This document shows positions 32,841 to 61,992 of a DNA stretch of 64,000 nt, in pieces (the stretch's first letter is position 1; every line of letters starts with the position of its first letter). Under the pieces are notes generated by a model, which saw nothing but the letters and a program-made list of their open reading frames with translations, was not told the DNA's origin and did no database searches. The position numbers were made by a program, and so were the translations under genes. Source of the DNA: Streptomyces venezuelae. Its GTDB lineage: Bacteria > Actinomycetota > Actinomycetes > Streptomycetales > Streptomycetaceae. Location: contig NZ_CP029192.1 of the NCBI RefSeq assembly GCF_008642315.1, positions 3,038,001-3,102,000 of the forward strand. Reading direction: 5' to 3'.

Positions 32841-33482
32841 TCAGGCCCGCGGGGCGCGCCACATCGGCCACATGGGCGGCCCGTCCGGCAGGTCGAGCGT
32901 CGTCCCCATGAAGGTGAAGCCGAGGCGCGCGTACAGATCGCGGCTGCGCGCGTTGCTGGCCTCCAGGTAGGCGTGCAGGCCGTCGCGGTCGCACCGGTCG
33001 AGCACCGCCGTGACGAGAGCCGTGCCGAGTCCTTCGCCCTGACGGTCGGGGTGCACGGCTATGAGGTGCAGGTATTCGTGCGCGCGGTCGGTCGGGTGGA
33101 TCGCCTCGGTCAGCCTGCCGATCACCTCGACCCGTTCGTTGTCCGGGTCGACGGCTCGACGCAGCAGCGCGGGCCCGTCCGCCGCACCCGCGTCCGCCGC
33201 TGACCCCGCTTCCGCCGCGTCGTCGGCCTCCCCGTCCCCGTGCGGCCCCGCGGGTACGGACCACCACAGGGCCACCGCCGCGCCGTCCTCGGTGATGTCG
33301 ACGTACCCCTCGTCGAGCGCGATGTCGAGGAAGGCGCCCATCAGCGCCCGGTGCGTGCGCACCCGGTGCGCCACCTCGGGGAAGACCCAGCTGCTCACCG
33401 GGTCGTGCACCAACGCCGCGTCGAGCAGTCGGATCACGTCCTCCCGGTCGTCCGCCCCGGCTCTCCGGATCGCCACACCCAC
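32841..33482 (-). CDS. GNAT family N-acetyltransferase
   Basis: Predicted acetyltransferase of 213 residues with a GTG start at 33482. The acetyl-CoA motif is LIAVHPDRQGEGLGTALV (about 142-159) and the C-terminal strand is AYLEASNARSRDLYARLGF. A low-complexity Ala/Asp/Gly insertion lies at about 83-102. It resembles the acetyltransferase at 1777-2415 in layout and in its WPMWRAP ending. It is encoded 109 bp downstream of the prenyl synthase; whether it belongs to the encapsulin unit is unknown. Confidence 0.87.
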   Translation of the reverse strand: MGVAIRRAGADDREDVIRLLDAALVHDPVSSWVFPEVAHRVRTHRALMGAFLDIALDEGYVDITEDGAAVALWWSVPAGPHGDGEADDAAEAGSAADAGAADGPALLRRAVDPDNERVEVIGRLTEAIHPTDRAHEYLHLIAVHPDRQGEGLGTALVTAVLDRCDRDGLHAYLEASNARSRDLYARLGFTFMGTTLDLPDGPPMWPMWRAPRA

Positions 33483-33591: not shown

Positions 33592-34725
33592 TCAATACGT
33601 ACGTCGCGTCACGAACTCCGCGAGCGCCAGCAGCCCGCCGGCCGCCTCCGGGTCCGGCACCGCCACGGCGAGCTGGCCGATCGCGCGGGACATCCGGTCG
33701 GCTGCGTGCGCCTGCGCCCAGTCGCGGCCGCCCGCCCGCTCGACGGCCAGGGCCGCCCGCGCCGCGTGCTCGGGCGCGCTCTCCGTGCCGCCGGGCGGCC
33801 TGTCGTACAGCTCGGCGAGTTCGGCCGCGGCCGGTGTGCCCGACGCCAGGGCGGCGACGACGGGCAGGGACTTCTTGCGGGCGGCGAGGTCGGCGCCCGC
33901 GGGTTTGCCGGTGCGGTGGGGGTCGCCCCAGATGCCGATGACGTCGTCGATCAGCTGGAAGGCGAGGCCCGCCTCCCGGCCGAAGCCGTCGAGCGAGTCG
34001 ACCTCGTCGAGCTCCGCGCCCGCGTACACCGCCCCGAGCGCGCAGGCGCAGCCGAGCAGCGCCCCCGTCTTGGCCTCGGCCGTGGCGAGGCACTCGTCGA
34101 GCGTGACCTCGTCCGGGCCGCGGCGTTCCAGCGCGCAGTCCGCGTGCTGGCCCGCGCAGAGCTCCATGACGCAGCCGGCGAGGCGGGCGGCGGCCGCCGG
34201 GGCCCCCGGGTGGGGGTCCTCGGCGAGCATCCGCTGCGCCAGCGCCTGCAGGGCGTCGCCGGTGAGGATGGCGTCGGCGTCGCCGAACACGGTCCACGCG
34301 GTGGGGCGGTGCCTGCGCGTGGTGTCGCGGTCCATCACGTCGTCGTGCAGCAGCGTGAAGTTGTGGACCAACTCCACTGCGGCGGCAGCCCGCACCGCGC
34401 CCGCGGGGTCGCCGCCCAGTGCCCGCGCCGCGGTGAGCACGAGCGCGGGCCTGATGGCCTTGCCCGCGCTGCCCGCGGCCGGTGTGCCGTCCGCGTACTC
34501 CCACCCGAAGTGGTAGAGCGCGACCCTGCGCAGGGACCCGGGCAGCGTCTCGATCGCCCTGCGCAGCTCCGGGTCGACGAGCTTGCGGGTCGACGCCAGG
34601 ATGTCCGCGGCCTCCGGCCCCTCACCGGTCCCGCCGGGCCTGCCGGGTTCCAGGATGCGCCCCTCCACGTGCACCGTGCCTGCCGTATCCACCGTGCCTG
34701 CCGTGTCCGTCGTCGCGTCCGTCAT
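33592..34725 (-). CDS. Polyprenyl diphosphate synthase, likely family 2 encapsulin cargo
   Basis: Isoprenyl diphosphate synthase of 377 residues that condenses isopentenyl diphosphate with allylic diphosphates. The substrate Lys/Arg segment is GKAIRPALVL; the first Asp-rich motif is LLHDDVMDRD (DDxxD); the second is LIDDVIGIWGDP, where the last Asp of DDxxD is displaced, as in this cargo group. The first 45 residues (MTDATTDTAGTVDTAGTVHV...) are Thr/Gly/Pro/Ala-rich and likely disordered, a place where encapsulin targeting signals are expected. It is 102 bp downstream of the family 2B shell gene on the same strand. Product chain length cannot be told from sequence alone. Confidence 0.9.
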   Translation of the reverse strand: MTDATTDTAGTVDTAGTVHVEGRILEPGRPGGTGEGPEAADILASTRKLVDPELRRAIETLPGSLRRVALYHFGWEYADGTPAAGSAGKAIRPALVLTAARALGGDPAGAVRAAAAVELVHNFTLLHDDVMDRDTTRRHRPTAWTVFGDADAILTGDALQALAQRMLAEDPHPGAPAAAARLAGCVMELCAGQHADCALERRGPDEVTLDECLATAEAKTGALLGCACALGAVYAGAELDEVDSLDGFGREAGLAFQLIDDVIGIWGDPHRTGKPAGADLAARKKSLPVVAALASGTPAAAELAELYDRPPGGTESAPEHAARAALAVERAGGRDWAQAHAADRMSRAIGQLAVAVPDPEAAGGLLALAEFVTRRTY

Positions 34726-34827
34726 GGACTCACCCCGGGAAGGATGCGGACGGTGGCTGTTCCTCGGCGTGTGGGCGCGTACGGAGGGGGTGTACCCCGT
34801 GCCGCGGCCGGGGACACAGCCCCGGGG

Positions 34828-36234
34828 TCAACTCCAGCGACCGATCTCCACGTTCTCCAGGACGCCGAGCGCGTCGGGCACGAGCACCGCGGCCGAATAG
34901 TAGGTCGACACCAGGTACGAGATGATCGCCTGCTCGCTGATGCCCATGAACCGGACGGACAGGCTCGGCTCGATCTCGTCCGGGATGCCGGTCTGGTGCA
35001 GGCCGACGACGCCCTGCTCCTCCTCGCCCGTACGCATGCAGATGATGGATGTCGTGCTGGCGTCGGTGACCGGGATCTTGTTGCACGGGAAGATCGGCAC
35101 GCCGCGCCAGGTGGGGATCCTGGTGCCGCTCATGTCGATGGTCTCCGGGACGAGTCCGCGCTTGTTGAGCTCACGGCCGAACGCGGCGATCGCGCGCGGG
35201 TGCGCGAGGAAGAGCTTGGATCCGCGCCTGCGGCTCAGCAGTTCGTCCAGGTCGTCCGGGCTGGGCACACCGGCGTGCGGCTGGATCCGCTGGTCGTACT
35301 CACAGTTGTGGAGGAGGCCGAACTCGCGGTTGTTGACGAGCTCGTGCTCCTGGCGCTCCTTGAGCGCCTCGACCGTCAGCCGCAGCTGCTGCTCGGTCTG
35401 GTTCATCGGCTGGTTGTAGAGGTCGGCCACGCGCGTGTGGACGCGCAGGACGGTCTGGGCGACGCTCAGTTCGTACTCGCGCGGCGCCGATTCGTAGTCC
35501 ACGAAGGTGCCGGGGAGCACGGCTTCGCCGACGTGGCCCGCCGACAGGTCGATGGGGGACTCGCCGAAGCCGTTGGTGCGCTGCGCCGGAAGCGCGCGCA
35601 GCCGCTCCAGGTGGTCCCGGAGGGGTGCGCTGCGCTCCGCGATCTGCTCGACGTCCTGGCGGGGCAGGGCCAGGACCGTGCACGCCGTGACCGCACGCGC
35701 GGTGTACTCCCAGATCGTCTCGGAGTCGACGAGCGCCTGGTCGCCGAAGTAGGCACCGTCGGCGAGGGTTTCGAGGACGGTGTCGTCCCCGTAAGGACCC
35801 GTGCCGACCTTCTCGACGCGGCCGTGCGCGAGCAGGAACACCTCGTTCGCCGGGCTGCCGAAGGAGGCCAGGACCTCTCCCGCGGCGAACTCCCGCTGCT
35901 GGCAGCGCTGCGCGAGCTCGCCGAGGACCTCCTGGTCGTCGAAGTCCCGCAGCACGGGCAGCTCGCCGAGCTCCGCGGGGATGACCTGCACGCGGTCGCC
36001 CGTCTTCACGAAGGTCACCCGACCGTCACCGACCGAGTAGCTCAGCCTTCGGTTCACCCGGTACGTGCCACCCTGCACCTGGACCCAGGGCAGCGTACGC
36101 AGCAGCCAGCGTGAGCTGATCTCCTGCATCTGTGGCGCGGACTTGGTGGTGGTGGCCAGATTCCGTGCGGCGGACGTGCCGAGACTCTGCTGCGGCTGCT
36201 CCGACTCGGAACGGATCTCTTCGCCTACCGACAT
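34828..36234 (-). CDS. Family 2B encapsulin shell protein with cyclic-nucleotide-binding-like insertion
   Basis: HK97-fold shell protein of 468 residues that should assemble into a protein nanocompartment. The N-terminal arm and first shell segment (about 1-80: [25 protein letters not shown]) are followed by an inserted cNMP-binding-like domain (about 85-225: [27 protein letters not shown] and [11 protein letters not shown]), then the main HK97 part (about 235-468: [50 protein letters not shown]; the C-terminal [29 protein letters not shown]). The ATG at 36234 has GGGAGGG about 10 bases upstream. The following gene is the prenyl synthase cargo. Confidence 0.93.
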
Positions 36235-36416
36235 TGGCTTTGCCCTCCCGGATACCTGCGGTCATCTGCGCGCCCCACCCTTCCAGCACGGAACGTGTCC
36301 GCGCCATTACACAAACGAGGGGGAATGGATCACCCTCCCGCGGGGCAGGAGGGGCTTTCCACTCGTTCGGCCCAACTCGGGAGGTGTCGGGCTCCGCTCC
36401 CTGGTGGGCTCGGGAA

Positions 36417-39035
36417 ATGACCACCTCCGCGGCCTCCGCCGACCCCGGCGAGCGGGAGCCGGCGGCGCCGCTCGCGCCGCCGGGCGAGCACGGCCCGATG
36501 CGCCTGCTGCGCGCCGTCGGCCGGGCGTTCGAGCCGGTCCGCCGCGCACCGGTGACCGTCTTCGTCGTCGTCGCGCTGTGGTCGGTCAGCGCCTTGACCC
36601 GCAGCCTCGGCTCGGGCCCGTCCGGCACGCTCCTGAACGACGTCGGCGTGGGCGTGCCCGCGCTCGCCGCCGGCCGCTGGTGGACGCCGCTCACCTCGAT
36701 CCTGTGGTGCCCGGGGATCGGCAACTACATCGGTTCGACACTGCTGTTGCTGCTTCTCGGCTCGGCGGCCGAGCAGCGCATGGGTTCCGTGCGCACGGGT
36801 GTCGTCCTCTTCCTCGGCCAGGTGCTGGGTTCGCTGCTCGGCACCGGCATCGTCAAGCTGGGCGCGCTGGCGGGCGAGGACTGGCTGCACGACCTCTCCC
36901 GGAATCTGACGGCGACACCCGGCATCGGCGCGTGTGCCGTCGGCGCCTTCCTGAGCTACCGCCTCGACGCCCTGTGGCGGCGCAGGCTCCAGCTGGGCCT
37001 GATCGTGTTCCCACTGATGCTCGTCCTGTACGTAGGACATCTGCAGGGCGTGCTGCGCCTGTCCGCGGTCGTGGTGGGCCTGGGTCTCGGCGCCCTCGCG
37101 CACGGGGACACGCACCGCATACGGATGCCGCACGCCTCGCACGGCGAGGGACGGGTCCTGGTGGCCCTGGTGGTGGCCGCCTCCGCCGTCGGCCCGCTCA
37201 TCGCCACCCTCTACAAGGACTCGTTCGGCCCGTTCAACGTCCTCGACCTGTACGTGTCCGGCGGGCCGAGCGCGCGGGACATCGCGGACGCCTGCGTGGA
37301 CGCGGGCAGCTCCGACTGCGCCCGCGTCCACGCCCAGGACCACTTCTACGGCTCTCCCGCGATGCTCATGGGGATCGCCATCCCGCTGCTGCTGCTCGTG
37401 CTCGCCGAAGGGCTGCGGCGGGGCCTGCGGCTCTCCTGGCGGATCTCGGTGGCCGCGCAGCTGGTGTGGCTCGGGCTCATGGCGTACCTCCTGAGCGACA
37501 TCGCCTCCCACCCCGACCGGTACGTCCTGGAGGGCAGCGATCTGTCCGACCAGAAGGCGGCGATGATCCAGGCCGTCGTCGAGCAGATGCTGCTCCCGCT
37601 GCTCGTCCTGGTGCTGCTCCTGTTCACCCGGAGACGCTTCGAGCAGGGCCTCTCGCGCGCCACCGTGACGTGGCTCGCGGGGATCGTCGGCGGCTCGCTG
37701 CTCCTGGCCTGCGGCACGTACGTGGGCGTCGGCTACGCGGTGCGCGACCAGTACACGCCCGACGCGACGTTCCCAAGACTCGTCTCGGGCCTGCCGACGC
37801 AGTTCCTGCCGCCGAGTTACGAACCGTTCTTCTTCCGGGGACAGGCCCCCGTCCCGGTCGGCGGCACCGCCCTGGCCCTCTACGAGTACTGCGGCATGCT
37901 CTTCTGGGTGGTCACCCTGATCGCCCTCTTCGTGGCGTTCCGGCGTCCCCTGCTGCACCCGGACCCGGGCGCCGCCGCACGCGCGCGTGCCCTGCTCGCC
38001 GCGCACGGCGGCTCCACGCTCTCCTATCTGACGACGTGGCCGGGCAATCGCTACTGGTTCTCGGCGGACGGCCGGGCGGCGGTCGCCTACCGGGTGCACT
38101 CGACGGTCGCGCTCACCACGGGCGACCCGTTCGGGGAGGAGTCCGCGCGCGGGGACGCGATCGAGGGTTTCGCCGCGTACTGCGACCGGCACGCCCTGAC
38201 GCCCTGCTTCTACAGCGTGACGGCGGACGCCAAGGCCCGCACGGACGCGCTGGGCTGGAGCTCTGTGCAGGTCGCCGAGGACACCGTGGTGCCGCTGCCG
38301 GAGCTGGCCTTCACGGGCAAGAAGTGGCAGGACGTCCGCACCGCCCTGAACAAGGCCAAGAAGGAGGGGATCACGGCGGAGTGGCACACCTTCCCGCGGG
38401 CGCCGATCGCGCTCACCGACCAGATCCGTTCGATCTCCGAGGAGTGGGTCGCCGACAAGGGACTCCCCGAGATGGGCTTCACGCTCGGCGGCCTCGACGA
38501 GCTCGACGACCCGCACGTGCGCTGCCTCGTCGCGGTCGACGGGGACCGCACCGTGCACGGCGTCACCAGCTGGATGCCGGTCTACGGAGACTCCGCACAG
38601 CCGGACGCGCGGGAAGCGGCCGACGGGGCCGCCGCCCGGCCGGTGGGCTGGACCCTGGACTTCATGCGGCGCCGCTCCGACGGGTTCCGCGGCTCCATGG
38701 AGTTCCTGATCGCGTCCGCGGCGCTCGGCTTCAAGGAGGAGGGCGCGCAGTTCCTCAGCCTCTCCGGTGCGCCGCTCGCCCGCTCCGGCACCGGCGAGCC
38801 GCCCGCCGCGCTGCAACGCCTCCTCGACCACGCGGGCCGCGCTCTGGAGCCCGTCTACGGCTTCCGTTCGCTGCTCAACTTCAAGGCGAAGTTCCAGCCC
38901 GAGTACCGGCCCATGTACATGTGCTACCCGGACCCGACGGCCCTCCCCAGCATCACCCGCGCGATCGGCAAGGCCTACCTCCCGCACATGAAGCCGTCGG
39001 AGGGAGTACGCCTCATGCGCAAACTCACCGCCTAG
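36417..39035 (+). CDS. Rhomboid-like membrane domain fused to LPG synthase-type (DUF2156) acyl-transfer domain
   Basis: Large membrane protein of about 872 residues from the ATG at 36417. The N-terminal 200 residues have a rhomboid-like helix arrangement, but the region TATPGIGACAVG lacks the catalytic Ser. More helices extend to about residue 520. The cytosolic C-terminal part (about 535-870) is the lysyl-phosphatidylglycerol synthase C-terminal fold: YLTTWPGNRYWFSADGRAAV, GDPFGEESARGDAIEGFAAYC, SMEFLIASAALGFKEEGAQFLSLSGAPLA and LLNFKAKFQPEYRPMY. MprF-like aminoacylation of lipids, giving resistance to cationic peptides, is the family role; no tRNA-synthetase domain is attached. Divergent from the encapsulin. 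Confidence 0.87.
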   Translation: MTTSAASADPGEREPAAPLAPPGEHGPMRLLRAVGRAFEPVRRAPVTVFVVVALWSVSALTRSLGSGPSGTLLNDVGVGVPALAAGRWWTPLTSILWCPGIGNYIGSTLLLLLLGSAAEQRMGSVRTGVVLFLGQVLGSLLGTGIVKLGALAGEDWLHDLSRNLTATPGIGACAVGAFLSYRLDALWRRRLQLGLIVFPLMLVLYVGHLQGVLRLSAVVVGLGLGALAHGDTHRIRMPHASHGEGRVLVALVVAASAVGPLIATLYKDSFGPFNVLDLYVSGGPSARDIADACVDAGSSDCARVHAQDHFYGSPAMLMGIAIPLLLLVLAEGLRRGLRLSWRISVAAQLVWLGLMAYLLSDIASHPDRYVLEGSDLSDQKAAMIQAVVEQMLLPLLVLVLLLFTRRRFEQGLSRATVTWLAGIVGGSLLLACGTYVGVGYAVRDQYTPDATFPRLVSGLPTQFLPPSYEPFFFRGQAPVPVGGTALALYEYCGMLFWVVTLIALFVAFRRPLLHPDPGAAARARALLAAHGGSTLSYLTTWPGNRYWFSADGRAAVAYRVHSTVALTTGDPFGEESARGDAIEGFAAYCDRHALTPCFYSVTADAKARTDALGWSSVQVAEDTVVPLPELAFTGKKWQDVRTALNKAKKEGITAEWHTFPRAPIALTDQIRSISEEWVADKGLPEMGFTLGGLDELDDPHVRCLVAVDGDRTVHGVTSWMPVYGDSAQPDAREAADGAAARPVGWTLDFMRRRSDGFRGSMEFLIASAALGFKEEGAQFLSLSGAPLARSGTGEPPAALQRLLDHAGRALEPVYGFRSLLNFKAKFQPEYRPMYMCYPDPTALPSITRAIGKAYLPHMKPSEGVRLMRKLTA

Positions 39036-39514: not shown

Positions 39515-40105
39515 ATGGCCTCACCCATGTCCGCGGGCCGGTTCCTCGACATCCTGCGAGACGAAGGCGTGACCGTCGTCGAAGTCGGCGACTGGGAACA
39601 TCACAACCGCAACCACAAGGGCCCCTGGGGGCCCGTCCACGGGGTGGTCATCCACCACACCGTGACCTCCGGCAGCGAGCGCACGGTGGAGATCTGTCGC
39701 GACGGTTCCGCCTCGCTCCCCGGCCCGCTCTGCCACGGCGTCATCACCAAGGACGGCCGCGTCCACCTCGTCGGGTACGGCCGCGCCAACCACGCGGGCC
39801 TCGGCGACGACGACGTGCTCCGCGCGGTCATCGCCGAGAAGCGCCTGCCCCCGGACAACGAGGCGAACACCGACGGCAACCGCCACTTCTACGGCTTCGA
39901 GTGCGAGAACATGGGCGACGGCGAGGACCCGTGGCCCGAGGAGCAGCTGGAGGCCATCGAGAAGGTCTCCGCGGCGATCTGCCGCCACCACGGCTGGACG
40001 GAGCGTTCGGTCATCGGCCACCTGGAGTGGCAGCCCGGCAAGGTCGACCCGCGCGGCTTCACGATGGACTCGATGCGGGAGCGCATCGAGGAACGCCTCA
40101 AGTGA
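39515..40105 (+). CDS. N-acetylmuramoyl-L-alanine amidase domain protein (Amidase_2)
   Basis: A 196-residue protein formed almost entirely by an Amidase_2/PGRP fold. Zinc ligands are visible in GVVIHHTVTSGS (first His) and IGHLEWQPGKVDP (second His), with HFYGFECENMGDGED in the middle. The enzyme would cleave the lactyl-Ala bond in peptidoglycan, but no signal peptide, membrane helix or cell-wall-binding domain is present, so it may work inside the cell, be released by lysis or come from a phage-derived gene. The ATG at 39515 has AAAGGAGG about 7 bases upstream. The next gene begins 10 bases after its stop. Confidence 0.9.
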   Translation: MASPMSAGRFLDILRDEGVTVVEVGDWEHHNRNHKGPWGPVHGVVIHHTVTSGSERTVEICRDGSASLPGPLCHGVITKDGRVHLVGYGRANHAGLGDDDVLRAVIAEKRLPPDNEANTDGNRHFYGFECENMGDGEDPWPEEQLEAIEKVSAAICRHHGWTERSVIGHLEWQPGKVDPRGFTMDSMRERIEERLK

Positions 40106-40115
40106 CAATGGCGGG

Positions 40116-41039
40116 GTGCACCACACCCCGCCCGGCCCGCACCCCCGGCTGCCGTCGCCGCTGCAACGCGTGGAGGACGACCGCTTCGGACGCCACGGCG
40201 TGGAGCTCGCGCTCAAACGGGACGACCTGATCCACCCGGACCTGCCGGGCAACAAGTACCGCAAGCTCGTCCTGAACCTGCGGTCTGCCGCCGACACGGG
40301 CCACGACACCCTGCTCACGTTCGGCGGCGCCTACTCCAACCACCTGCGCGCCACCGCCGCGGCGGGCCGCCTCCTCGGCCTCGCCACGGTCGGCGTCGTC
40401 CGCGGCGACGAGCTCGCAGGGCGCCCGCTGAACCCGTCCCTGGCCCGCTGCGCGGCCGACGGGATGCGGCTGCACTTCGTGGACCGGTCGACGTACCGGA
40501 AGAAGGCGGAACCCGCGACGCTGGCCGCGCTCCTGCGCGAGACGGGCTGCCGGGACGCGTACGTGATCCCGGAGGGCGGCAGCAATCCCCTTGCCGTGCG
40601 GGGCTGCACGGCGCTCGGCGAGGAGCTGCGCGAGCACACCGACGTGGCGGCCGTGGCGTGCGGCACCGGCGGCACCCTGGCGGGTCTCGCCGCGGGGGTC
40701 GGACCCGACCGGCGGGCCCTCGGCATACCGGTCCTCAGAGGCGGCTTCCTGGGCGAGGACATAGCCGCCCTGCAACGGCGGACGTTCGGCGAACCGACCG
40801 CCAACTGGCGCCTGGACGAACGCTTCCACTGGGGCGGCTACGCCCGCACCCCGCCCGGACTCCTCGCCTTCGCCGAGGACTTCGAGCACCGGCACGGGGA
40901 CGCGACCGGCCTCTCGGTGGAGCGCCTCTACGTCGCCAAGTTGCTGTACGCCCTGACCGTCCTCTCGGAAGAGGGCGCTTTCCGGCCCGGGACCCGCCTC
41001 ACCGCGGTCATCACCGGCGCGCCCGAGCCCTCCGAGTAG
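40116..41039 (+). CDS. PLP enzyme of the ACC deaminase / D-cysteine desulfhydrase family
   Basis: Pyridoxal-phosphate fold-type II enzyme of 307 residues. The Schiff-base Lys is in LPGNKYRKLVLN (family motif GNKxRKL); FGGAYSNHLRATAAA binds the cofactor and substrate; EGGSNPLAVRG and AVACGTGGTLAGL form the phosphate cup. Either deamination of 1-aminocyclopropane-1-carboxylate or desulfhydration of D-cysteine is possible; the specificity residues were not resolved. The GTG at 40116 lies 10 bases past the amidase stop, so it is probably translated from the same mRNA, although the ribosome binding site is weak. Confidence 0.87.
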   Translation: MHHTPPGPHPRLPSPLQRVEDDRFGRHGVELALKRDDLIHPDLPGNKYRKLVLNLRSAADTGHDTLLTFGGAYSNHLRATAAAGRLLGLATVGVVRGDELAGRPLNPSLARCAADGMRLHFVDRSTYRKKAEPATLAALLRETGCRDAYVIPEGGSNPLAVRGCTALGEELREHTDVAAVACGTGGTLAGLAAGVGPDRRALGIPVLRGGFLGEDIAALQRRTFGEPTANWRLDERFHWGGYARTPPGLLAFAEDFEHRHGDATGLSVERLYVAKLLYALTVLSEEGAFRPGTRLTAVITGAPEPSE

Positions 41040-41059: not shown

Positions 41060-42658
41060 TCAGTCCTCGATCTCCCGGTGCGCGGCCGCCTCTTCCAGGT
41101 CGAGCTTGCGCAGCAGCGTCCGCATCATCTCGTCGTCGATGCGCCGCTCGTCCCGCATCTTCACGAACACCTCGCGCTCCGCGGCGATCGCCTCCCGCGC
41201 GAGGCGCCGGTAGGTGTCGTCCGCCGACTCCCCCGTCACCGGGTTCGCCTGGCCGAGCCGCTCCCACACGGAGTTGCGGCGGCGCTCCAGAACGGTGCGC
41301 AGACGGTCCTGGAGGGGCCGTGGGAGGCTGTTGCGCTCGTCCCGCATGAGTTCCTCCACCCGGGCCTCCGCGGCCTGCGAGGCGGCGTTCTGCGCCTGCG
41401 CCTCCGCGAGCGTCTGCGCCTGCGCGTCCCTGCCCGGCAGTTTCAGGACGCGGATCAGCCACGGCAGCGAGAGTCCCTGCACGACGAGCGTTCCGATCAC
41501 CGTGGTGAACGTCAGAAACAGGACAAGATTGCGCGCGGGGAACGGCTCGCCGTCGTCCGTCACGAGCGGGATCGAGAACGCGATGGCGAGCGAGACCACG
41601 CCCCGCATGCCGGCCCAGCTGACGATCAGCGGCCTGCGCCAGTCCATGTCGTCCTCGCGCTCCTTGATCCGCGCCGAGAGCCCGCGCGGCAGGTACGTCG
41701 CCGGATACGACCACACGAAGCGCGCCACCACGACGAAGACGAAGACCCCGACCGCGTACCAGACGGCCTGCCCCACGCTGTACTCGCCGAGCCCCTTCAG
41801 CACGACGGGCAGCTGCAAACCGATCAGCGCGAAGACCGCCGACTCCAGGATGAACGCGACGACCTTCCACACCGCGGCCTCCTGCAGCCGCGTCTCGAAG
41901 TCGACCTGCCAGGACCGGTGCCCCAGGTAGAGCGCGACGACGACCACGGCGAGCACTCCGGAGGCGTGCACCTGTTCCGCGGCGGCGTACGCCACGAAGG
42001 GGATGAGCAGCGACAGCGTGTTCTGCAGCATCGCCTCCTTGAGGTGGGTGCGCAGCCAGTGGATCGGCACCATGAGGAGCAGCCCGACGCCGACGCCGCC
42101 CACCGCGGCGACCAGGAACTCCTGGACACCGCCGACCCAGCTCATGCCCTCGCCGATCGCCGCCGCGACGGCCACCTTGTAGGCGGTGATCGCGGTCGCG
42201 TCGTTCACCAGGGACTCGCCCTGGAGGATCGTGGTGATCCTCGACGGGAGGCCCACCCTGCGCGCGATGGCCGTGGCGGCGACCGCGTCGGGGGGCGCGA
42301 TCACGGCGCCGAGGACGAGCGCGGCGGTCAGCGGCAGGTCCGGGATGAGCAGATAAGCGAGCCATCCGACGGCGACCGTGGCGAACAGGACGTAACCGAC
42401 CGAGAGGAGCGCGACGGGCCTGATGTTGGCCCGCAGGTCCAGGTAGGAGCTCTCCAGGGCGGCGGTGTGCAGCAGCGGGGGCAGGATCAGCGGCAGCACG
42501 ATGTGCGGGTCGAGGTGGTAGTCGGGCACGCCCGGCAGGTACGAGGCGGCGAGCCCCACGGCGACCAGGAGCAGCGGCGCGGGCACCGGTGTCCTGCGCG
42601 CCGCCCCGGCCACCACCGCGCTCGCCGCGATCAATGCCACCAGTGGCAATGCGTCCAT
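41060..42658 (-). CDS. CPA1-type Na+/H+ antiporter
   Basis: Membrane cation/proton exchanger of 532 residues. About 12 helices occupy the first 410 residues. Key acidic residues lie in VIAPPDAVAATAIARRVGLP and LQGESLVNDATAITAYKVAVA (the ND motif of electroneutral CPA1 exchangers), and WAGMRGVVSLAIAFSIPL is the conserved GMRG-helix. A cytosolic helical tail of about 110 residues follows. The ATG at 42658 has GGAGGGG 9 bases upstream. It is divergent from the small UBP zinc-finger gene, which often accompanies such antiporters in streptomycetes. Confidence 0.93.
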   Translation of the reverse strand: MDALPLVALIAASAVVAGAARRTPVPAPLLLVAVGLAASYLPGVPDYHLDPHIVLPLILPPLLHTAALESSYLDLRANIRPVALLSVGYVLFATVAVGWLAYLLIPDLPLTAALVLGAVIAPPDAVAATAIARRVGLPSRITTILQGESLVNDATAITAYKVAVAAAIGEGMSWVGGVQEFLVAAVGGVGVGLLLMVPIHWLRTHLKEAMLQNTLSLLIPFVAYAAAEQVHASGVLAVVVVALYLGHRSWQVDFETRLQEAAVWKVVAFILESAVFALIGLQLPVVLKGLGEYSVGQAVWYAVGVFVFVVVARFVWSYPATYLPRGLSARIKEREDDMDWRRPLIVSWAGMRGVVSLAIAFSIPLVTDDGEPFPARNLVLFLTFTTVIGTLVVQGLSLPWLIRVLKLPGRDAQAQTLAEAQAQNAASQAAEARVEELMRDERNSLPRPLQDRLRTVLERRRNSVWERLGQANPVTGESADDTYRRLAREAIAAEREVFVKMRDERRIDDEMMRTLLRKLDLEEAAAHREIED

Positions 42659-42704
42659 CGGCAGACCCCTCCGCCCTCCGCGTTCCCGTCGTAACCTGGC
42701 AATC

Positions 42705-42965
42705 ATGAACGAGTGCCCGCACGTCGCAGCGCTGCCGCACCCCGAGCCCGCCCCGATGAGCGAGACGTGTCTCGAATGCCAGGCGGCCGGCAGCCATCCT
42801 GTCCAGTTGCGGCTGTGCCTGCAGTGCGGGCACGTGGGCTGCTGCGACTCCTCGCCCTTCCAGCACGCGACGGCGCACTTCAAGGAGACCTCACACCCTG
42901 TGATGAGGACCTTCGAGCCGGGGGAGAGCTGGCGCTGGTGCTTCGTGGACGGTTCGATCGTCTGA
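42705..42965 (+). CDS. UBP-type zinc-finger protein
   Basis: An 86-residue protein consisting of a ZnF-UBP domain: Cys4/His6, CLEC (22-25), CLQC (38-41), Cys46/Cys47, His54 and His58/His64 give the multi-zinc pattern. In eukaryotes this fold binds the C-terminus of ubiquitin; in actinobacteria its partner is unknown. It is divergent from the antiporter (46 bp between starts). The end of the gene overlaps the candidate stress-sigma promoter for prsH-sigH. Confidence 0.9.
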   Translation: MNECPHVAALPHPEPAPMSETCLECQAAGSHPVQLRLCLQCGHVGCCDSSPFQHATAHFKETSHPVMRTFEPGESWRWCFVDGSIV

Positions 42966-42976
42966 CGTTTGGGTAC
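42951..42976 (+). promoter_or_regulatory. Candidate SigB/SigH-type promoter for prsH-sigH
   Basis: GGTTCG, 14 bases, GGGTAC. Stress sigma factors of the SigB/SigH group recognise GNTT-N14-16-GGGTAC/T. It lies about 237 bp upstream of prsH, with the -35 inside the UBP gene's 3' end. Autoregulation of the SigH operon is known in S. coelicolor; activity here is inferred. Confidence 0.55.
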
Positions 42977-43034
42977 GTCAACCCGGCGCCCGTTCTTTCC
43001 AATTGGGCCTGCGCGACCCCTAGCCACTGTCCGT

Positions 43035-48409: not shown

Positions 48410-48713
48410 GTGTGGAGCGTACCTTTCGCGTCCGGCGGCTCCCGTCGAGCCGCGGCGCCAGGGCGGGACCCTCAGCCCGCCCACGGCACCGCAGCCCTTC
48501 AGGTGCATCGGCCGCCAGAATGTGCGGTACTGAACAGCCGATCTTGAGGATCCGACACGGTCAGGGCAGAGAGTGCCGGTTCCTCGATCCGCTCTCCTGT
48601 GCGGGGAGGGCGGAGGCTTTACCCACGCATTGTGGACTAGACCATTCTCCTATGTCTATGCGTCGGCAGATGTTTGTTGTTGTCTCTTTCTCCGACAATC
48701 GGAGCCGACTTTC
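48410..48713. other. 304-bp region upstream of pdtaS
   Basis: No gene is seen. It is markedly AT-richer from 48610 to 48715. It holds a dre-like DasR site (48631-48646), an inverted repeat CTCCGA-CAA-TCGGAG (48690-48704), and two copies of TCGGAGCCGAC (48699-48709, 48722-48732), the second reaching into the TetR gene. The pdtaS promoter should be here. Confidence 0.45.
48631..48646. promoter_or_regulatory. dre-like DasR-binding site upstream of pdtaS
   Basis: TGTGGACTAGACCATT; the core TGGACTAGACCA (48633-48644) matches 11 of 12 bases of the DasR consensus core TGGTCTAGACCA. It lies 224 bp upstream of the pdtaS start and 70 bp past the TetR stop. Confidence 0.5.
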
Positions 48714-61697: not shown

Positions 61698-61744
61698 ACA
61701 CAAGATATGGGGCTGCCACTCAGAGCCAGCACTAGATGTATGCT
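61698..61744 (+). promoter_or_regulatory. Paired NrdR boxes in the nrdA promoter region
   Basis: ACACAAGATATGGGGC (61698-61713) and GCACTAGATGTATGCT (61729-61744) both resemble the NrdR box (ACACWWWATMTWGTGT-like) and are exactly 31 bp apart, three helical turns, which is the spacing known for NrdR sites in front of ribonucleotide reductase genes. Confidence 0.75.
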
Positions 61745-61860
61745 CGTGCTCGCTGTCGCCGCAGGGGAATCCGGTGCAAGTCCGGAACTGTCCCGCAACG
61801 GTAGACGTGTACGCATTTGTCGTGCGCGGAGTCCGAAGACCTGCCGGCAGTGCACCCGTG
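61738..61860 (+). ncRNA. Cobalamin (B12) riboswitch upstream of nrdA
   Basis: The conserved cobalamin aptamer core is clear: GCAGGGGAATCCGGTGCAAG, TCCGGAACTGTCCCGCAACGG and the B12 box AGTCCGAAGACCTGCCGGCA at 61830-61849. A GC-rich expression platform (about 61860-61985) with complementary GCCCGGGTG blocks follows before the nrdA ribosome binding site. In streptomycetes a B12 riboswitch is known to repress the class I nrdAB operon when cobalamin allows the class II reductase to work. Confidence 0.95.
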
Positions 61861-61992
61861 CCGTCCGGCCCGGGTGCCGACCGTCCGGGCCTCGTGGAAT
61901 GGGCCGGTGGACGCGGTACGCCGCCCTGCCCGGGTGCGCCCGTGTGTGCCATCCCCTCCCCAGGCCCAGAGCCGAGCGAGGGAGAGCTCCAC

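Follow-up and report, generated by a model that had tools for sequence, protein, structure and literature searches.

According to the available text of the survey by Andreas and Giessen 2021 (PMC8346489), 900 family 2B encapsulin operons carry a polyprenyl transferase (PT), 888 of them in Actinobacteria, 904 carry a terpene cyclase, and 165 carry both. An operon with a prenyl synthase and no cyclase is therefore the usual form of a class that is already described and annotated. Cargo proteins of the PT type have disordered N-termini of 50-100 residues that share no conserved tag; a disordered N-terminus is common among family 2B cargos, and acetyltransferases and deaminases are enriched near PT-type operons. 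The same family 2B classes are listed in the accessible part of Dutcher et al. 2025 (PMC12407261). Published excerpts also cover the Streptomyces genes called esh: eshA (SCO7699) belongs to one operon with two 2-methylisoborneol (2-MIB) genes under BldC and is dispensable for 2-MIB (PMC6428758), and its paralogue SCO5249, named eshB, is up-regulated during development (PMC3878966). SCO5249 is also given as a possible target of negative AtrA regulation (PMC13170358) and is listed in a mycelium transcriptome table (PMC3610822), and SCO5250 is 4.4-fold higher on glucose and is mentioned with genes of the methylerythritol phosphate/deoxyxylulose phosphate (MEP/DOXP) pathway (PMC7494193). This study is concerned with a stretch of 64,000 nucleotides from Streptomyces venezuelae (NZ_CP029192.1, positions 3,038,001 to 3,102,000), referred to as the window, in which a shell gene and a prenyl synthase gene form a pair. 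The pair is probably one of the Streptomyces family 2B encapsulin operons of prenyl-synthase type, located where S. coelicolor has eshB (SCO5249).

Both genes had been proposed in an original prediction made from the letters of the DNA, and both open reading frames (ORFs) are found at the positions given there, on the minus strand, which the prediction had left unmentioned: the shell gene (34828-36234, 468 amino acids) first and the synthase gene (33592-34725, 377 amino acids) after a spacing of 102 bp. The proposed identities, a family 2B shell and a prenyl synthase as its cargo candidate, agree with two NCBIfam models that score above cut-off: NF041163, “family 2B encapsulin nanocompartment shell protein” (779.9 bits against a required 400), and NF041169, “family 2 encapsulin nanocompartment cargo protein polyprenyl transferase” (489.1 bits against 450). 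The synthase also matches PF00348 (polyprenyl_synt) at 2.1e-56. In the shell, PF19307 (SrpI-like, HK97-fold; 1.1e-137, 457.6 bits) covers residues 216-466, and the cyclic-nucleotide (cNMP)-binding model PF00027 (1.3e-18) covers residues 114-201 (35632-35895, minus strand). This second match is an inserted domain, a feature of family 2B that is absent in family 2A, and the family 2A model NF041162 stays under its cut-off of 380 at 365.4 bits.

The pairing is common in the genus. Of 150 Streptomyces genomes sampled, 147 have a shell that matches this Pfam family, 116 have the synthase (E <= 1e-100), always as a single copy, and 123 have a shell of the window type (E <= 1e-205); in 117 of the 123 the match scores at least 814 bits, a cut placed by us at a gap in the scores. 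Going by coordinates, at least 112 of the 116 genomes have the synthase directly after an eshB-like shell gene of the same orientation. Among the other four, the adjacent shell is cut by a contig end in G130, the genes are on separate contigs in G112, the fragmented assembly G102 has a partial synthase and no eshB-like shell, and G076 is considered below. The original prediction treated the missing cyclase as an anomaly; since cyclase-free operons are the majority of the published class (PMC8346489, available text) and the synthase is this widespread, that idea can be set aside. The operon class being known and annotated, the presence of the pair is unsurprising, yet the pair is a nanocompartment candidate found across much of Streptomyces. 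A smaller sample of 17 genomes holds 30 shells, 14 with the synthase beside them and ten with a 2-MIB-type cyclase; one of the other six has a geosmin-type cyclase (L112), one a geranyl diphosphate (GPP) methyltransferase match only (L125), and for four (L116, which is the synthase-less shell of G006, and L126, L127 and L128) none of the cargo queries matched within about 1.5 kb of the shell. In an order-wide sample, 57 of 60 genomes have a shell match, including 12 of the 15 outside the genus.

The surroundings of the pair were compared across 80 related loci, the best of 501, with 79 titled Streptomyces and one “Actinobacteria bacterium”, by tblastn at 1e-10 for neighbouring genes; some of these loci end early. 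The shell is found in 77 of the 80, and the misses are two loci that start at a contig edge (L031 and L072) and one with upstream DNA lacking a shell (L086). As originally predicted, no cyclase or methyltransferase is local to the pair. At that threshold both the 2-MIB cyclase and the GPP methyltransferase are absent from all 80 loci, queries for epi-isozizaene-, 2-MIB- and geosmin-type cyclases give no match in the 80 at 1e-4 (59 have both 10-kb flanks), and none of the five PF19086 terpene-cyclase matches of the genome lies within the window. Further from the pair, two markers of synteny are present: a match to the small RNA scr5239 at 48455-48616 (minus strand), and an epi-isozizaene-synthase-like gene (C1:3104848-3105978; 665.2 bits, cut-off 675), just past the end of the window and 31-32 kb from the pair. 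A P450-like ORF stands beside the latter and ribonucleotide-reductase-like ORFs are nearby, all named by eye. In S. coelicolor, scr5239 and the epi-isozizaene synthase, P450 and ribonucleotide-reductase genes are presumably the neighbours SCO5222-5239. With scr5239 and the epi-isozizaene-type marker placed in the SCO52xx region, the pair should therefore equal eshB (SCO5249) and SCO5250, an orthology that we infer from synteny.

A conserved promoter-like block, GATCCATTCCC-N10-GTAAT followed by ACg.tccGTG, lies at 36287-36331 (minus strand) and begins 97 bp 5' of the shell start codon. Its consensus across loci is GATCCATTCCCgCTC.TTcG.GTAAT.GC, then cACg.tccGTG, and most of the columns flanking it are unconserved. 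Of 76 shell upstream regions, counting that of the window, 69 have the core, at a median of 97 nt ahead of the start codon. Genome-wide, the 15-base core matches exactly once and three more times at one mismatch. Loci without the synthase (L158, L164, L165) keep the block with 0-2 substitutions, and the geosmin-type loci L159 and L166 have no match to it. A palindrome within the block is not firm (ACG-N2-5-CGT in 35 of 68), and scans for sigma-70 promoters and for terminators returned no matches.

The catalytic motifs of the synthase are intact. When 23 of the 80 orthologues are aligned with the window protein, giving 24 sequences in all, the aspartates of both aspartate-rich motifs are invariant: D128, D129 and D132 of DDVMD (residues 128-132; 34330-34344, minus strand) and those of DDVIG (residues 260-264; 33934-33948, minus strand). 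The AlphaFold2 model, built from these 24 sequences, has a mean predicted local distance difference test score (pLDDT) of 86.8 and is confident over most of its length, and the best fold match in the Protein Data Bank (PDB) is 3nf2 (47% identity, template modelling scores 0.84/0.93), followed among others by archaeal geranylgeranyl diphosphate (GGPP) synthases. The residue five positions before the first aspartate motif serves as a chain-length rule, phenylalanine favouring C20. This residue is F in the window synthase, and Y and F in the aligned Pyrococcus and Geoglobus GGPP synthases, respectively. No NCBIfam chain-length model exceeds its cut-off on the synthase; the second-best model overall is that of the GGPP synthase IdsB (355.5 bits, under a cut-off of 475). 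The sequence suggests a C20, perhaps a C15, product. The genome has nine polyprenyl-synthase matches including this one, and the other eight are at most 48% identical to it over their best segments.

Residues 1-34 of the synthase (34624-34725, minus strand) have pLDDT below 50 and are predicted to be a disordered extension, a candidate cargo-loading region that is unconserved among the orthologues, both in the 24-sequence alignment and across the 80 extensions. Extensions of the 80 orthologues span 8-268 amino acids with a median of 34.5, lengths that follow from our own start-codon rule, some calls of which are clearly doubtful (one gives the 268). The window extension holds DTAGTV twice, and the pattern GPTGLG occurs in none of the 80. 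Five other patterns are commoner across the 80 extensions than in 300 shuffles: P[ITAS]G (32 against a mean of 15.8), [GRS]P[TSAI]G (21 against 6.0), ER[RHL] (16 against 2.6), an ILER-like pattern (6 against 0.0) and an ERRxPIG-like pattern (13 against 1.0). No cargo motif is claimed from these, as the patterns were chosen post hoc, the rows are related, the starts are doubtful, and none is seen by eye in the window extension. The conserved upstream block, the unconserved disordered N-terminus of the synthase and the occasional loss of either partner alone are new details.

For the shell, the closest solved chains are 9bhu (677 bits to 9bhu_A), 9bje and 9bix, which match the whole protein and are deposited as “nucleotide-binding protein” or “Crp/Fnr family transcriptional regulator”. 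The canonical cNMP phosphate-binding site in CRP is Arg-Ser/Thr. By hand alignment, this pair is not found in the inserted domain of the window shell, where the position is W175-E176. Of the 77 orthologous shells found, 75 were aligned, and all 75 have W175, E176 and R180. In the accessible text of PMC12407261, which cites a preprint, the family 2B inserted domain is stated to bind no cyclic nucleotide. The diagnostic motifs printed there for Enc1 and Enc2 of the two-component S. lydicus encapsulin fit 9bje and 9bix, respectively, and these chains are therefore taken to be the S. lydicus shells. Enc1 is reported as unable to form shells alone; both shells of the S. venezuelae genome have RRR at diagnostic motif 1, as in Enc2 (PMC12407261). 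An Rfam match to Sernc350, labelled “antisense RNA”, lies at 35696-36203 (plus strand), opposite the 5' part of the shell gene. Because such a match recurs opposite the shell gene in five of five shell loci tested, the 2-MIB shell included, it is probably coding-sequence similarity, and a real antisense RNA was rejected.

The scheme that we favour is as follows. Both genes are most likely transcribed from one promoter 5' of the shell gene, and the shell protein would assemble by itself into a single-component shell. Its cargo would be the synthase, a short-chain enzyme of the all-trans type, loaded by way of the disordered N-terminus. There the synthase would join isopentenyl diphosphate (IPP) to an allylic primer to give a diphosphate of C20 (perhaps C15). 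The substrates would enter, and the product leave, through the pores of the shell, and enzymes encoded at other loci would then take up the product.

Several observations weigh against this scheme. The synthase is missing at E 1e-100 in 34 of the 150 genomes, and four of the 117 genomes with an eshB-like shell have that shell without it (G006, G101, G141 and G051). The GNAT gene directly follows the shell in G141. In G101 (L165 9604-10295), a remnant of the synthase remains between shell and GNAT gene; its C-terminal stretch matches and its N-terminal part is recognised by eye, and the stretch holding both aspartate motifs was not detected. The eshB-like shell of G051 (78% identical; L166 6247-10038) is outside the usual flank and adjoins a two-domain protein that resembles geosmin synthase; shells that are alike can thus have different enzymes as neighbours. 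The shell can also be the missing partner. G076 (L162) has the synthase in its syntenic place, with the flanking genes for the amidase, the pyridoxal phosphate (PLP)-dependent enzyme and the exchanger described below, and no shell was found at the locus; in Streptomyces sp. ODS25 (L086 7823-11000) the PLP enzyme is upstream of the synthase with no shell between them, in a search of that locus only. A degenerate block is visible by eye 5' of the G076 synthase, which would fit a promoter shared by the two genes, but the block is unmatched there even at up to 4 substitutions. The extensions of the 80 orthologues share no conserved cargo tag and cannot be aligned by eye. Finally, eshB is treated in the available text of PMC3878966 as a cNMP-binding developmental gene and not as a prenyl compartment.

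If the synthase were a co-transcribed neighbour and not a lumen cargo, and the real cargo of the shell something else, the absence of a tag, the persistence of the shell in G006, G101 and G141, and the cyclase beside the G051 shell would all be accommodated. Nevertheless, we regard a synthase outside the lumen as unlikely, since nearly all synthases lie directly behind a shell, since a disordered N-terminus is typical of family 2B cargos, and since the PT class is equally motif-less in the accessible text of the 2021 survey (PMC8346489).

The synthase might instead feed the 2-MIB pathway by making GPP for a methyltransferase/cyclase operon encoded elsewhere, possibly in mixed shells. A complete 2-MIB operon that includes a shell gene of its own is indeed present in the genome (C1:2151306-2154983; L003 6306-9983), about 0.92 Mb away; in it, shell (757.0 bits), cyclase (496.6 bits) and methyltransferase (464.6 bits) are all above cut-off. 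The two shells are 63.5% identical overall; with domain bounds chosen by us, identity is 72.3% for the HK97 parts (residues 13-90 and 216-466) and 45.1% for the inserted domains (residues 91-212). The value for the HK97 parts is above the 70.3% given for all two-component Enc1/Enc2 proteins combined, and the S. lydicus pair co-assembles, according to the available text of PMC12407261. Mixed shells from the two proteins of this genome are possible. However, the block core is not found at the 2-MIB locus, either exactly or in its 15-base form at one mismatch, and the synthase residues point to C20/C15, not C10. The GPP methyltransferase (1e-70) is in 81 of the 150 genomes, and its occurrence is independent of the synthase: 63 genomes have both, 18 the methyltransferase only, 53 the synthase only and 16 have neither (Fisher p=1.0, in a test that ignores phylogeny). 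This independence led us to reject the pair as a stray piece or satellite of the 2-MIB system, and feeding of 2-MIB synthesis by the synthase is improbable. The original prediction had offered use of the product elsewhere as one reading and had named a cyclase and methyltransferase gene pair elsewhere in the genome, co-regulated with the two genes, as evidence to the contrary. A cyclase and methyltransferase pair exists (C1 2.151-2.155 Mb), but it has a shell of its own and the promoter-like block was not found there; use of the product elsewhere is therefore strengthened, not refuted, and not proved.

Supply of farnesyl diphosphate (FPP), the substrate of epi-isozizaene cyclase, to the epi-isozizaene (albaflavenone-type) cyclase/P450 pair just past the window end is very improbable, as that pair is not adjacent (at 31-32 kb it is beyond the 10-kb flanks of the 80 loci) and the window synthase is one of nine in the genome.

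A broader reading, speculative and rather doubtful, is that a compartment dedicated to prenyl diphosphates and regulated during development, made up of EshB and a GGPP-type synthase, is present in most streptomycetes, where it would serve some core process of differentiation that has gone unrecognised instead of a terpene cyclase, and that its shell could co-assemble with the 2-MIB shell where both loci are present. If true, two separately encoded isoprenoid enzymes would share one compartment in strains with both loci. No product or function for the pair was found in the papers searched, which came from an open-licence collection that leaves out most subscription papers and all bioRxiv preprints. 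The separation from 2-MIB, the natural losses of a single partner and the conserved upstream block make the function of the pair testable.

Both neighbours that had been pointed out originally are present. The GNAT acetyltransferase gene downstream of the synthase (32841-33482, minus strand; PF00583 7.7e-14) is a conserved neighbour found in 60 of the 80 loci. The divergent gene on the other side (36471-39035, plus strand, start approximate) encodes an MprF-like LPG_synthase_C protein (PF09924 2.5e-83; NF033480 177.6 bits, below its cut-off of 600); the rhomboid part of the proposed fusion, in the N-terminal region, is weak, as both rhomboid models fall just below their cut-offs. This gene is in only three of the 80 loci. 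It is a lineage-specific insert between amidase and shell and, judged by its distribution, is outside the system; its functional coupling to shell and synthase was rejected, and as context it probably has no meaning for them. The syntenic flank beyond it consists of the amidase (39515-40105, plus strand; 65 of the 80 loci), the PLP-dependent enzyme related to 1-aminocyclopropane-1-carboxylate (ACC) deaminase (40116-41039, plus strand; 70 of the 80) and a Na/H exchanger (41060-43027, minus strand; 70 of the 80). A match to a cobalamin riboswitch is present at 61740-61862 (plus strand).

Among the known systems, the pair resembles the PT-type family 2B operons of PMC8346489, as far as the available text describes them: a shell with an inserted cNMP-like domain, an adjacent PT gene, and a disordered PT N-terminus without a tag. 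The acetyltransferases and deaminases enriched near those operons may correspond to the GNAT and ACC-deaminase-related genes here. The differences are that the extension is about 34 amino acids, under the 50-100 reported, and that the LPG insert parts amidase and shell in this lineage. The likeness to eshB (SCO5249)/SCO5250 of S. coelicolor lies in the synteny markers, scr5239 and the epi-isozizaene-type synthase, and in the gene for a cNMP-binding protein. The closest solved synthase, 3nf2, is a polyprenyl synthetase of S. coelicolor, but the genome has a 48% identical paralogue (L011) to which 3nf2 may instead correspond. In eshA-mibA-mibB (PMC6428758, in part) a family 2B shell is likewise present, but its partners there are a terpene cyclase and a GPP methyltransferase, and the upstream region differs. 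The S. lydicus two-component encapsulin (PMC12407261, in part) has the same shell fold, but there two shell genes are in one operon of the xylulose-kinase type, whereas here there is one shell gene per locus, at two loci.

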